From: a bacterium
Lineage (GTDB): Bacteria > JALSQH01
Direction: 5' to 3'
DNA length: 10,254 bases
NCBI GenBank assembly: GCA_026985515.1
Contig: JALSQH010000251.1
Span: 1-10,254 of the forward strand
The notes beneath the pieces were generated by a model. It was not told where the DNA came from. It was given only the letters and a program-made list of their open reading frames with translations, and did no database searches. A program made the position numbers and the translations under genes. Below, one piece after another: positions 1,991-4,630 of this stretch; positions within the stretch are counted from its first letter, which is position 1; every line of letters begins with the position of its first letter.

Positions 1991-2024
1991 GGGAAAAAGG
2001 AAAGGAGTTAACCCCTTTCCTTTT
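1991..2024 (-). terminator. Hairpin with short T-run at the end of the 502-residue protein gene
   Basis: An 11-bp perfect inverted repeat pairs 1995-2005 with 2014-2024 around an 8-base loop that contains the stop codon TAA. Read on the minus strand the right arm ends in CCTTTTT and is followed by CCC. The stem has only four G:C pairs and the T-run is five bases, so termination is probably partial. It could end the upstream transcript or attenuate read-through into the RND gene. Confidence 0.5.
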
Positions 2025-3516
2025 GATATCTGAGTTTCTTATAGAAGAATGGCAGGAGGATCATCAGGAGAAAACCTGGCAGAATATTTCCGTTTCCACT
2101 CATGTCACATCCACCTCCACCACCTGAGTGTGAACCTGGAGGAGGTGGTGCTGTTACATTTATTGTGAAGTGCTGAAGCATGAAACTGCTGCCGTTGTCC
2201 ACTTCCACAATTACATGATAAAGGCCGGTTTTTGGTGGATGCCACTGAATATACCCGCTTCCTGAATCTATACTCATTCCATCAGGAGCATAAAGGAGAC
2301 CATAGTGAAGTGTCCCTGATCCCTCAGCCTGTACATCATATATGTAGTTGTTGCCAAGCTGTACACTTCTGGGAGGATAACTTGTTATATTGGGAGAATT
2401 CTCATTGAGATACATACCATTGAGAACAAGCAACGGATGACCGGGGGCTCCTGTTCTGGAATCACCATAGTAGAAGGAGTAGTCCTGATTTACAATGACA
2501 TGTGCATTAAAAGCTCTTGTGGGATCGAAGAACCAGTCTCCCCTCAGAACAGATGAACTGTCACCGTAATCGTCAAAGAACCAGGGAAGAACTTCACCCG
2601 GGAGGTAGTTGCCATTATAGAGGGCTGATTTCAGGGTCTTACCGAAATTTCCGGGCCATCCAAGAATGTATCCATAGTAATTGTCGGTGGAGTCAAACAT
2701 TTCTGGATGTGAAAATTGCAACTCCCAGATTCCCCTTGAAGAGGTGATGTCTATAAGTTCATAGGGAACAGGATTGAGGTTGTTTATGTCTCCTCCAAGG
2801 TCATCGTTGGAAATGGATTCATCCCCTGCTGCTGGAGCAGTGAAATCTGTTGCATTTGGATCAAAGTAATAGGTAAGCATGTGTAGAGACTCAGTTTTTA
2901 TTCCTTCAAGCCAGTTCCTCAAATCATGGCCTTTGCCGTCATGTGCATAACTTGCAAATAACACTGGATGATTACCATACATACCTGCAGCAGAGTAAGA
3001 GTCATCGTAGAAATCGAGTCCACCACTTATATTGAGGCTTCCACTTTCTATGTCGTTACCCTGTTGTTCTTTGTAGACGGAAACTCTGTTATTTGTCATG
3101 ATTTCAAGGGCAGTGAAGTCACCGTAAGTAGAACCATCCTTGTAAACCACCACCATTATTCCGTCAAACTCGTGTGAGTATGGTGACAGACCACCTTCAT
3201 TTGTCCATACGTGGTAGAGGAAGTAGTAGATGAAAAAGTGAGTTTTACTTTCAATAACGAAGTAGTAAACCGCAGCAGGTAACTGTCCATTGTCATTCAG
3301 GGCATTCTGAATATTGTTGGTGGGATCAAAATCTCCATCAAAGTCAACAGAAGTGATTCTGTCAAATGCGCCGGTTGAGTCGGGGTAGACCTCCTGGTAA
3401 ATTACAGGAGCATAGTGTTCCGCTAATTCTTTGTATGAGGCGTATCCAGAAAGTCTGCCTGCCCACAGGCCCCCTAAAAATAAAGTGATGGTTAAAAATA
3501 CCTTCACCTTTCTCAT
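2008..3516 (-). CDS. Secreted protein with Ig-like domain and Cys-containing C-terminal sorting/anchor signal
   Basis: This 502-residue protein starts at ATG 3516, chosen over an upstream in-frame ATG (3567) because GGAGG lies 6 bases before it and the protein then opens with a clean signal peptide (MRKVKVFLTI..., hydrophobic to about residue 25). Residues 32-300 form an unrecognised domain beginning YAPVIYQEVYP, with aromatic-rich strands (VYYFVIES, FFIYYFLYHVW) and the motif HEFDGIMVVV at 115-124. Residues about 374-454 resemble a cadherin-like/He_PIG Ig domain (YDVQAEG, PDGMSID, GYIQW, GLYHVIVEVD). The tail has PPPPG, a Gly-rich stretch ending in Cys470 (GGGGGC), a hydrophobic helix (about 478-491) and a basic end (KKLRYQK). 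That layout matches CTERM-type sorting signals such as Synerg-, MYXO- or GlyGly-CTERM, so the mature protein is probably processed and exposed on the surface. Function of the main domain is unknown. It is the first gene of a two-gene set with the RND exporter. Confidence 0.85.
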   Translation of the reverse strand: MRKVKVFLTITLFLGGLWAGRLSGYASYKELAEHYAPVIYQEVYPDSTGAFDRITSVDFDGDFDPTNNIQNALNDNGQLPAAVYYFVIESKTHFFIYYFLYHVWTNEGGLSPYSHEFDGIMVVVYKDGSTYGDFTALEIMTNNRVSVYKEQQGNDIESGSLNISGGLDFYDDSYSAAGMYGNHPVLFASYAHDGKGHDLRNWLEGIKTESLHMLTYYFDPNATDFTAPAAGDESISNDDLGGDINNLNPVPYELIDITSSRGIWELQFSHPEMFDSTDNYYGYILGWPGNFGKTLKSALYNGNYLPGEVLPWFFDDYGDSSSVLRGDWFFDPTRAFNAHVIVNQDYSFYYGDSRTGAPGHPLLVLNGMYLNENSPNITSYPPRSVQLGNNYIYDVQAEGSGTLHYGLLYAPDGMSIDSGSGYIQWHPPKTGLYHVIVEVDNGSSFMLQHFTINVTAPPPPGSHSGGGGGCDMSGNGNILPGFLLMILLPFFYKKLRYQKERG

Positions 3517-3522
3517 GATGCA

Positions 3523-3527
3523 CCTCC
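3523..3527 (-). promoter_or_regulatory. Shine-Dalgarno that fixes the start of the 502-residue protein
   Basis: GGAGG on the minus strand with a 6-base spacer to ATG 3516. It lies inside GGGAGGTG and selects this ATG rather than the one 17 codons upstream. Confidence 0.8.
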
Positions 3528-3538
3528 CTTCTCTAAAT

Positions 3539-3567
3539 ACCTTATCACAAAGAATTTTTAAAGTCAA
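3539..3567 (-). promoter_or_regulatory. Sigma-70-type promoter of the secreted-protein gene
   Basis: On the minus strand TTGACT (3567-3562) and TAAGGT (3544-3539) are 17 bp apart, with TG one base before the -10 (extended -10). Transcription would start near 3532, leaving a leader of about 16 bases that includes the GGAGG Shine-Dalgarno. The promoter is divergent from the zapA promoter. Confidence 0.6.
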
Positions 3568-3672: not shown

Positions 3673-3957
3673 ATGGAAGAGAGAGAAGTAAAAGTTGTAA
3701 TTGGAGGGAAGGTTTTTACGATTTTAACTTCTGAGAGTGAAGAAGTTATCAGAGCTGGTGAAAGATTGATAAATGAAAGATGGAAGGAGCTTGCAGGAAA
3801 GCTGGAAAATCTTGATAGTTTCTCCAGATGGCTGCTTTTATCTTTTGATCTTGCAGTGGATCTGGTCAAGGCTGAGAAATTGCAGGAGAATTTGAAACTG
3901 CTTGGAAATAGAGCTTCAGAAGTACTTGAAAGATTTGGGGAGAGAGGCGGGGATTAA
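3673..3957 (+). CDS. zapA: Cell division protein ZapA
   Basis: The 94-residue product has the size and pattern of ZapA: a short beta-rich N-terminus (VKVVIGGKVFTILTSESEE) followed by helices with INERWKEL and a long amphipathic stretch (WLLLSFDLAVDLVKAEKLQENL) suited to coiled-coil dimers. ZapA binds FtsZ filaments in the cytoplasm and promotes Z-ring bundling. The start is certain, because an in-frame TAA is 15 bases upstream and no other common start codon lies between. No Shine-Dalgarno is present in the 20 bases before the ATG, unlike most genes here; see the promoter entry. Its position before a structured RNA and a 5-formyl-THF cyclo-ligase matches the zapA-ssrS-fau order known from E. 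coli, which supports the call. ZapA sequences diverge strongly, so the identification rests on size, pattern and context. Confidence 0.82.
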   Translation: MEEREVKVVIGGKVFTILTSESEEVIRAGERLINERWKELAGKLENLDSFSRWLLLSFDLAVDLVKAEKLQENLKLLGNRASEVLERFGERGGD

Positions 3958-3967
3958 AATATAAGGA

Positions 3968-4075
3968 AAGGGGAAAGAAGAGGAAGCAATGGCAAATTCA
4001 TATATAAATTCGTCGGTAAGGACTTATTACATCCCCTTTAAATCAAGATAATTTTCGTTTCCTCTCTTTCCCCTT
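3968..4075 (+). ncRNA. Rod-shaped structured RNA; candidate 6S RNA (ssrS) or leader of the cyclo-ligase gene
   Basis: Bases 3968-3978 pair with 4065-4075 (11 bp); after a one-base bulge, 3980-3987 pair with 4057-4064 (8 bp, one G:U). This makes a 19-bp closing stem. Inside it AAATT (3994-3998) can pair with AATTT (4050-4054), and GTAA/TTAC (4016-4019 with 4027-4030) can form an apical hairpin, giving a rod with open bubbles. In E. coli and many other bacteria 6S RNA, a rod with a central bubble that binds RNA polymerase, lies exactly between zapA and fau. A TAAAAT (3955-3960) that overlaps the zapA stop would start transcription near 3967, at the base of the stem, although I find no good -35. 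At about 108-115 bases it is short for 6S RNA (commonly 160-200), so a cis-acting leader is a real alternative. There is no T-run after the stem, so it is not a simple terminator. Confidence 0.45.
3989..4051 (+). CDS. Possible 20-codon small ORF inside the structured RNA
   Basis: ATG at 3989 opens a 20-codon frame (MANSYINSSV...PFKSR) ending in TAA at 4049-4051. GAGG (3980-3983) sits 5 bases upstream, a proper Shine-Dalgarno distance, but it is part of the left arm of the closing stem and would be masked when the stem forms. It could be a leader peptide of the downstream gene, or chance: 20 codons is short, and purine-rich stem arms easily look like ribosome sites. If the region is a 6S RNA, this frame is meaningless. 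Confidence 0.2.
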   Translation: MANSYINSSVRTYYIPFKSR

Positions 4076-4087
4076 ACAGGTGTTATT

Positions 4088-4630
4088 ATGAAGTTTGACA
4101 TAAGGAACTTCTGTCTGGCATATAGATTTTCTCTATCATCAGAAGTTAAGAGAATTATCGAATTGATTTTTCTCCACAAAACAGGCAACCTTGTGAGGAA
4201 ATCCGGTGTTAAATTTGTGGGTATTTACTATCCTGTAAAAAGAGAGCCTTCCCTTCTCAAGTTAATGGAAGTTGCTGAAGAAATTAGGTTTTACTTCCCT
4301 GTAATGAAGGAGAAAGATCTCTGCTGGGGTAGTTACAGGGGGTGGAACCGGGGAAAAATTAACAGATACGGAATATGGGAGCCTGAAAGGTGTGATAATG
4401 AAATACCAGAACTGATTCTTGTTCCAGGTGTCGCATTTGATATGAAGGGTTACAGAGTGGGATATGGAGGAGGTTTTTTTGACAGATTCCTGGAAAATTA
4501 CAGCGGGATCAGTGTTGGAATTGTGTATGACAGGTGCCTCTTCAGAGAGTTGCCTGCTGAAGAGCATGATATTCCCGTAAAACTTGTTGTTAGTGAGAAG
4601 AAAGTGGTAGGAGAGAGGGTGTCTGTATAA
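4088..4630 (+). CDS. fau: 5-formyltetrahydrofolate cyclo-ligase (MTHFS)
   Basis: This 180-residue cytoplasmic enzyme converts 5-formyl-THF to 5,10-methenyl-THF with ATP, returning the stored folate to one-carbon metabolism. The family signature VPGVAFDMKGYRVGYGGGFF-DRFL is at residues 112-135 with the Gly-rich YGGGF loop; YGIWEP at 94-99 and EEHDIPVKLVVSE at 158-170 are also typical. The N-terminal basic pattern K-x3-R-x6-R (K2, R6, R13) fits the ATP-binding start of the family. The length is normal (about 180-200). The ATG has AGGTG six bases before it. The gene follows the zapA-structured RNA unit and ends 15 bases before rny, so it probably belongs to the same operon. The tail KLVVSE differs slightly from the more usual DxIITE, which does not argue against activity. 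Confidence 0.9.
   Translation: MKFDIRNFCLAYRFSLSSEVKRIIELIFLHKTGNLVRKSGVKFVGIYYPVKREPSLLKLMEVAEEIRFYFPVMKEKDLCWGSYRGWNRGKINRYGIWEPERCDNEIPELILVPGVAFDMKGYRVGYGGGFFDRFLENYSGISVGIVYDRCLFRELPAEEHDIPVKLVVSEKKVVGERVSV

Follow-up and report, generated by a model that had tools for sequence, protein, structure and literature searches.

A conserved RNA hairpin in the gap between zapA and the cyclo-ligase gene: a possible translated leader

Three described systems bear comparison with the locus analysed in this study. In Streptococcus, the fthC motif (uORFC-39-1) consists of an upstream open reading frame (ORF) ahead of the 5-formyltetrahydrofolate cyclo-ligase gene, with a conserved purine-rich Shine-Dalgarno (SD) sequence and AUG (PMC11109978). 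Its authors propose that the supply of initiator tRNA sets the rate of initiation at this ORF (PMC11109978). The motif folds into three hairpins, the third of which is an intrinsic terminator, and its 69 representatives all come from Streptococcus (PMC11109978). In Salmonella, the intergenic small ORF of mgtQ-mgtB frees the ribosome-binding site of the next gene; mgtQ has 8 codons and acts by ribosome destabilisation at Asp/Glu codons, a mechanism that was tested (PMC8092293). The third system, 6S RNA (RF00013), is comparable through its position beside zapA and the cyclo-ligase gene and through its appearance as a single rod; one of the shortest known 6S RNAs is about 160 nt long (PMC9130861).

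The window, a stretch of 10,254 nucleotides, is contig C251 of a 2.36-Mb draft genome that is 97.6% complete. The gene order on its plus strand is zapA, cyclo-ligase gene, RNase Y gene, gene of a YmdB-like phosphoesterase and tyrosyl-tRNA synthetase gene, and the whole gap between zapA and the cyclo-ligase gene measures 130 nt. A total of two genomes of the phylum were used for the comparison, that of the window (G000) and that of a relative from another genus of the same family (G001, 80% complete). The relative shows the same gene order as the window and carries the element in the same gap (locus L002), and the flanking proteins are 50% (ZapA) and 47% (cyclo-ligase) identical between the two. 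Both genera also conserve, divergently beside zapA, the gene of a large protein that looks secreted and has no domain match beyond a weak Ig-like one (window 2008-3567, minus strand; L002 3-767, minus strand). Features of the locus are listed in Table 1.

Table 1. Features of the zapA/cyclo-ligase gap and its flanks. Positions are those of the window unless L002 is given.
Feature	Position	Strand	Description
zapA	3673..3957	+	upstream gene; Pfam ZapA 7.3e-11
5' arm of rod	3968..3987	+	purine strand; contains SD-like GAGG of upstream frame; 3969-3987 identical in relative
Ultra-conserved block AGGGGAAAGAAGAGGAAGCAATG	3969..3991	+	5' arm and AUG; 23-base exact match to relative; conservation ends at AUG
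Candidate upstream ORF	3989..4051	+	20 codons and TAA (MANSYINSSVRTYYIPFKSR); fills loop; in frame with cyclo-ligase start 99 nt downstream
UCCCCUUU in loop	4032..4039	+	can pair with AAAGGGGA at 3967-3974 (alternative fold); not conserved in relative
3' arm of rod	4057..4075	+	pyrimidine strand; pairing kept in relative (full duplex there -26.4 kcal/mol)
SD AGGTG of cyclo-ligase gene	4078..4082	+	identified from sequence; anti-SD pairing -6.4 kcal/mol
5-formyltetrahydrofolate cyclo-ligase gene (fthC/ygfA)	4088..4630	+	presumed target; Pfam PF01812 1.7e-31
Upstream ORF of relative	L002 1215-1289		24 codons (MTAFLYKIFSAVLENLLIKFRIVG); in frame; 108 nt from cyclo-ligase start of relative

The gap holds a real, conserved RNA hairpin. 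Analysis of the window agreed with the closing stem described in an earlier, sequence-only reading of this DNA: bases 3968-3978 and 3980-3987 pair with 4057-4075, giving 19 pairs and one bulged base (A3979 or a neighbour). The fold of 3961-4080 has an energy of -33.1 kcal/mol (z -3.2), with one of 200 shuffles equally good, and the duplex formed between the 5' arm and the remainder of the gap (-32.0 kcal/mol) was matched by none of 2000 dinucleotide shuffles. The genome background was determined on a 178-kb sample of this genome, in which 20-nt stretches, taken in 5-nt steps, were each paired with the sequence lying 50-130 nt further downstream; the best pairing reached -26.4, compared with -27.1 for the rod in the same scan. 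The minus strand of the region folds about as well as the plus strand. The sequence-only reading had also placed bubbles and a small apical hairpin inside the stem. The interior of the rod is weakly structured in the window, where the loop alone folds at -3.1 kcal/mol and the apical hairpin is marginal, but the relative has a solid apical hairpin at the corresponding place (GACUGC/GCAGUC); a central bubble was not found.

Comparison of the two genera revealed no long exact match in non-coding sequence of the two contigs other than the block of 23 identical bases. Of the two arms, the 3' arm is the freer to vary; in the relative it carries six edits and still pairs, with 12 of 2000 shuffles equally good. 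No compensatory changes were found in the stem between the window and the relative, in which the 5' arms are identical. Since the pairing of the relative's 3' arm is what random edits would leave, covariation gives support neither for nor against the stem. Further copies of the last 22 bases of the block were found in neither genome (up to three mismatches), nor in 384 other genomes (up to two mismatches), and no copy of this 22-mer was present in viral contigs. A MITE or other repeat was rejected, as the element is single-copy and occupies one place in both genomes. A partial second match on contig C34 was likewise set aside, as it lies inside an apparent coding sequence.

The conserved AUG opens a short frame that the sequence-only reading did not mention. 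In the block, GAGG lies five bases ahead of the AUG, and in both genomes the frame closes at its first stop, a TAA immediately ahead of the 3' arm. In post hoc tests against shuffled loops, the placement of the stop beside the 3' arm gave P values of about 0.04 (window) and 0.018 (relative), and the openness of the frame alone was unremarkable (P 0.28 in the window and 0.09 in the relative). Similarity between the two peptides was not found, shuffles scoring as well in 93% of cases; the peptide of the relative is fairly hydrophobic and that of the window not strongly so. The upstream SD is of moderate strength, with 19-34% of all ATGs equal or better, and it is predicted to be hidden in both genomes, with mean unpaired values of 0.06 for the window, where the alternative fold contributes to the hiding, and 0.26 for the relative.

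Overall, we tentatively favour the reading that the rod is a translated leader in the form of a hairpin, acting in cis on the cyclo-ligase gene within a zapA/cyclo-ligase/rny operon transcript. An element controlling the cyclo-ligase gene was the second of the two options in the sequence-only reading, and it fits the evidence better than 6S RNA. The leader reading rests on two sequences and their predicted folds. In such a leader, the 5' arm would carry the ribosome-binding site and AUG of the short ORF, the loop would be the body of the ORF and the stop would fall just ahead of the 3' arm. Ribosome loading on the upstream ORF during transcription of the 3' arm would keep the hairpin open. With slow loading the hairpin would close, so that the upstream start site would be hidden and a helix would occupy part of the 30S footprint at the cyclo-ligase start. 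Through the hairpin, cyclo-ligase output would thus come to depend, in one direction or the other, on how fast translation initiates. The size of the 30S footprint is established, and the foot of the stem, with 2 nt between it and the cyclo-ligase SD, falls inside it. When the 5' arm is occupied in the folding model, the predicted exposure of the cyclo-ligase SD shows no common direction of change across the two genomes. Supply of fMet-tRNA is plausible as the input, since the cyclo-ligase feeds 10-formyl-tetrahydrofolate.

Among the described systems, the fthC motif may be considered, by analogy, the nearest relative in kind of this putative leader. The two share the downstream gene, a conserved purine-rich SD-like stretch with an AUG, an in-frame stop in or next to a hairpin and a short uncharacterised frame; this likeness concerns their descriptions, and in architecture the two differ. 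Unlike the three hairpins and terminator of the fthC motif, the element described here has one long stem around the frame and no terminator, and it belongs to a zapA/cyclo-ligase/rny operon in an unrelated, barely sampled phylum. With mgtQ-mgtB it has in common a short ORF placed in an intergenic gap of an operon, where stem-loops enclose it close to the ribosome-binding site of the following gene, but there is no homology between them and the mechanism proposed here is inferred. If the leader reading is true, Streptococcus is joined by a separate, second case in which a short ORF guards the cyclo-ligase gene, and the idea that bacteria sense initiator-tRNA formylation by leader ORFs becomes directly testable. 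A more specific proposal, which we consider a long shot, is that the element is a translation-initiation sensor for one-carbon metabolism. In this proposal, competition between the hairpin and an upstream ORF start dependent on formylated initiator tRNA would determine how much is made of the enzyme restoring 10-formyl-tetrahydrofolate, and the sensor, located in the 6S slot, would have an origin independent of the Streptococcus fthC leader.

Analysis of the flanking sequence revealed a competitor for the 3' arm. The 3' end of zapA (3937-3957) is a purine tract able to pair with this arm at -27.4 kcal/mol. If the fold of the window takes in the zapA end and leaves it free, the 3' arm pairs preferentially with that tail, and the rod is no longer the structure of lowest predicted energy; blocking the tail in the prediction restores the rod. 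In the cell, a ribosome terminating on zapA would have this blocking effect, freeing the 3' arm for the rod. Pairing with the zapA tail was rejected as a built-in switch: it is present in both genomes, yet it is no stronger than after synonymous recoding (P 0.14 in the window and 0.08 in the relative), and it is no more than purine-rich coding yields. In the relative, the end of the 3' arm can form a further hairpin over the cyclo-ligase SD (CUCCC-UGU-GGGAG, L002 1305-1317), exclusive with the rod; its equivalent in the window has only 3 bp.

Several explanations other than a translated leader were considered for the rod. It could, with no upstream ORF involved, be a spacer or processing hairpin whose sole task is to separate or couple its two flanking genes, either as a site where RNase III cuts the operon mRNA in two or as a helix that joins the zapA stop and the cyclo-ligase SD. 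The near-perfect 19-bp helix placed exactly between the stop at 3957 and the SD at 4078 is consistent with this role, as are the lack of peptide conservation and the unremarkable openness of the window frame. Such a role, however, needs no run of 23 identical bases ending at an AUG, and greater freedom of the 3' arm to vary is not expected from it, so that we consider it possible but unlikely. Conservation of the 5' strand as sequence, beyond the needs of pairing, would suit another small RNA acting in trans, or an RNA bound by a protein, with the conserved purine strand as its functional part, and the zapA end of the relative contains a weak promoter-like match (9/12; L002 1158-1187). Against this, which makes it improbable in our view, neither genome has a complementary site with up to three mismatches, and the window gap has neither a sigma70-type promoter match nor a plus-strand intrinsic terminator for a separate small RNA. 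Chance pairing of a purine with a pyrimidine tract is hardly credible: purine-rich strands pair readily with any pyrimidine tract, as the zapA tail does, but the pairing of the rod was reached by none of 2000 shuffles in the window and by 12 of 2000 in the relative, was unmatched in the 178 kb of background and is conserved between genera. We give next to no credence to a type I toxin-like messenger, in which the start of a tiny hydrophobic peptide would be hidden by end-to-end pairing. The pairing of 5' and 3' ends over the SD and the hydrophobic peptide of the relative resemble such a messenger, but the two peptides are unrelated, that of the window lacks strong hydrophobicity, the operon is a housekeeping one and there is no second copy.

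The remaining alternative, a compact 6S RNA, was the first option of the sequence-only reading, which was right in treating the gap as a frequent 6S slot. In other phyla, Rfam identified 6S RNA beside zapA in 10 of 30 loci and upstream of the cyclo-ligase gene in 3 of 20, and a local 6S model made from these 13 RNAs found two more slot 6S RNAs, L060 (55 bits) and L071 (29 bits), both below the Rfam gathering cut-off. Members of the 6S family have a length of about 160-200 nt, bind sigma70 RNA polymerase and template pRNA; their fold comprises a closing stem, an open central bubble bordered by G-C pairs and a long terminal arm. The slot 6S RNAs are 158-190 nt long, and the rod, at about 108 nt, is below the common 6S size, as had been noted in that reading. 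They have a C-rich start (CCCUGC), a G-rich end (GGCGGGG) and a common CCCACCUGG hairpin. The rod, with its purine 5' arm and pyrimidine 3' arm, shows the opposite polarity to them on either strand, and it has no symmetric central bubble and no CCxACCUG 3'-bubble hairpin, carrying instead a weak hairpin directly at the stem. The search with the Rfam 6S covariance model (RF00013) that the reading had suggested found nothing at E<=10, whether in the gap of the window, in that of the relative or elsewhere in either genome. The local model, also with filters off, yielded stray fragments only in the two gaps (scores no higher than 0.5 and 5.3 bits). A compact and highly divergent 6S RNA binding RNA polymerase would be in keeping with the slot position known from many other phyla and with the lack of a convincing 6S RNA elsewhere, though tmRNA was found in the genome of the window. 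Nevertheless, neither Rfam nor a local model able to detect held-out slot 6S RNAs matches the rod, and its length, arm polarity and missing central bubble also argue against this explanation, which we regard as very unlikely.

The element in this gap has consequences for the annotation of 6S RNA. The zapA/cyclo-ligase gap is treated as a 6S address and here holds something else; hence position alone cannot assign 6S RNA. The sequence-only reading had named a clear 6S gene elsewhere, together with absent covariation, as grounds for abandoning its proposal; compensatory changes are indeed absent, but with Rfam and the local model no convincing 6S RNA was identified elsewhere in either genome. 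Loss of 6S RNA and its extreme divergence are therefore both possible, and the loss in both genomes of the phylum is possibly real. In the tmRNA control, tmRNA scored above the cut-off in the genome of the window and not in that of the relative, which is 80% complete. The best match of the local model (C11:20166-20278, minus strand, 19.9 bits) was discarded, as its position is antisense within a coding frame and Rfam does not support it. Search of the two gaps with the whole Rfam library gave chance matches only for other families, mostly eukaryotic microRNA hairpins. In the other phyla, the RNA at L071:1269-1436 (minus strand) is a 6S-like RNA in the zapA slot, and that at L060:1771-1992, in the zapA-rny gap of genome G002, shows a textbook 6S fold (z -6.3).
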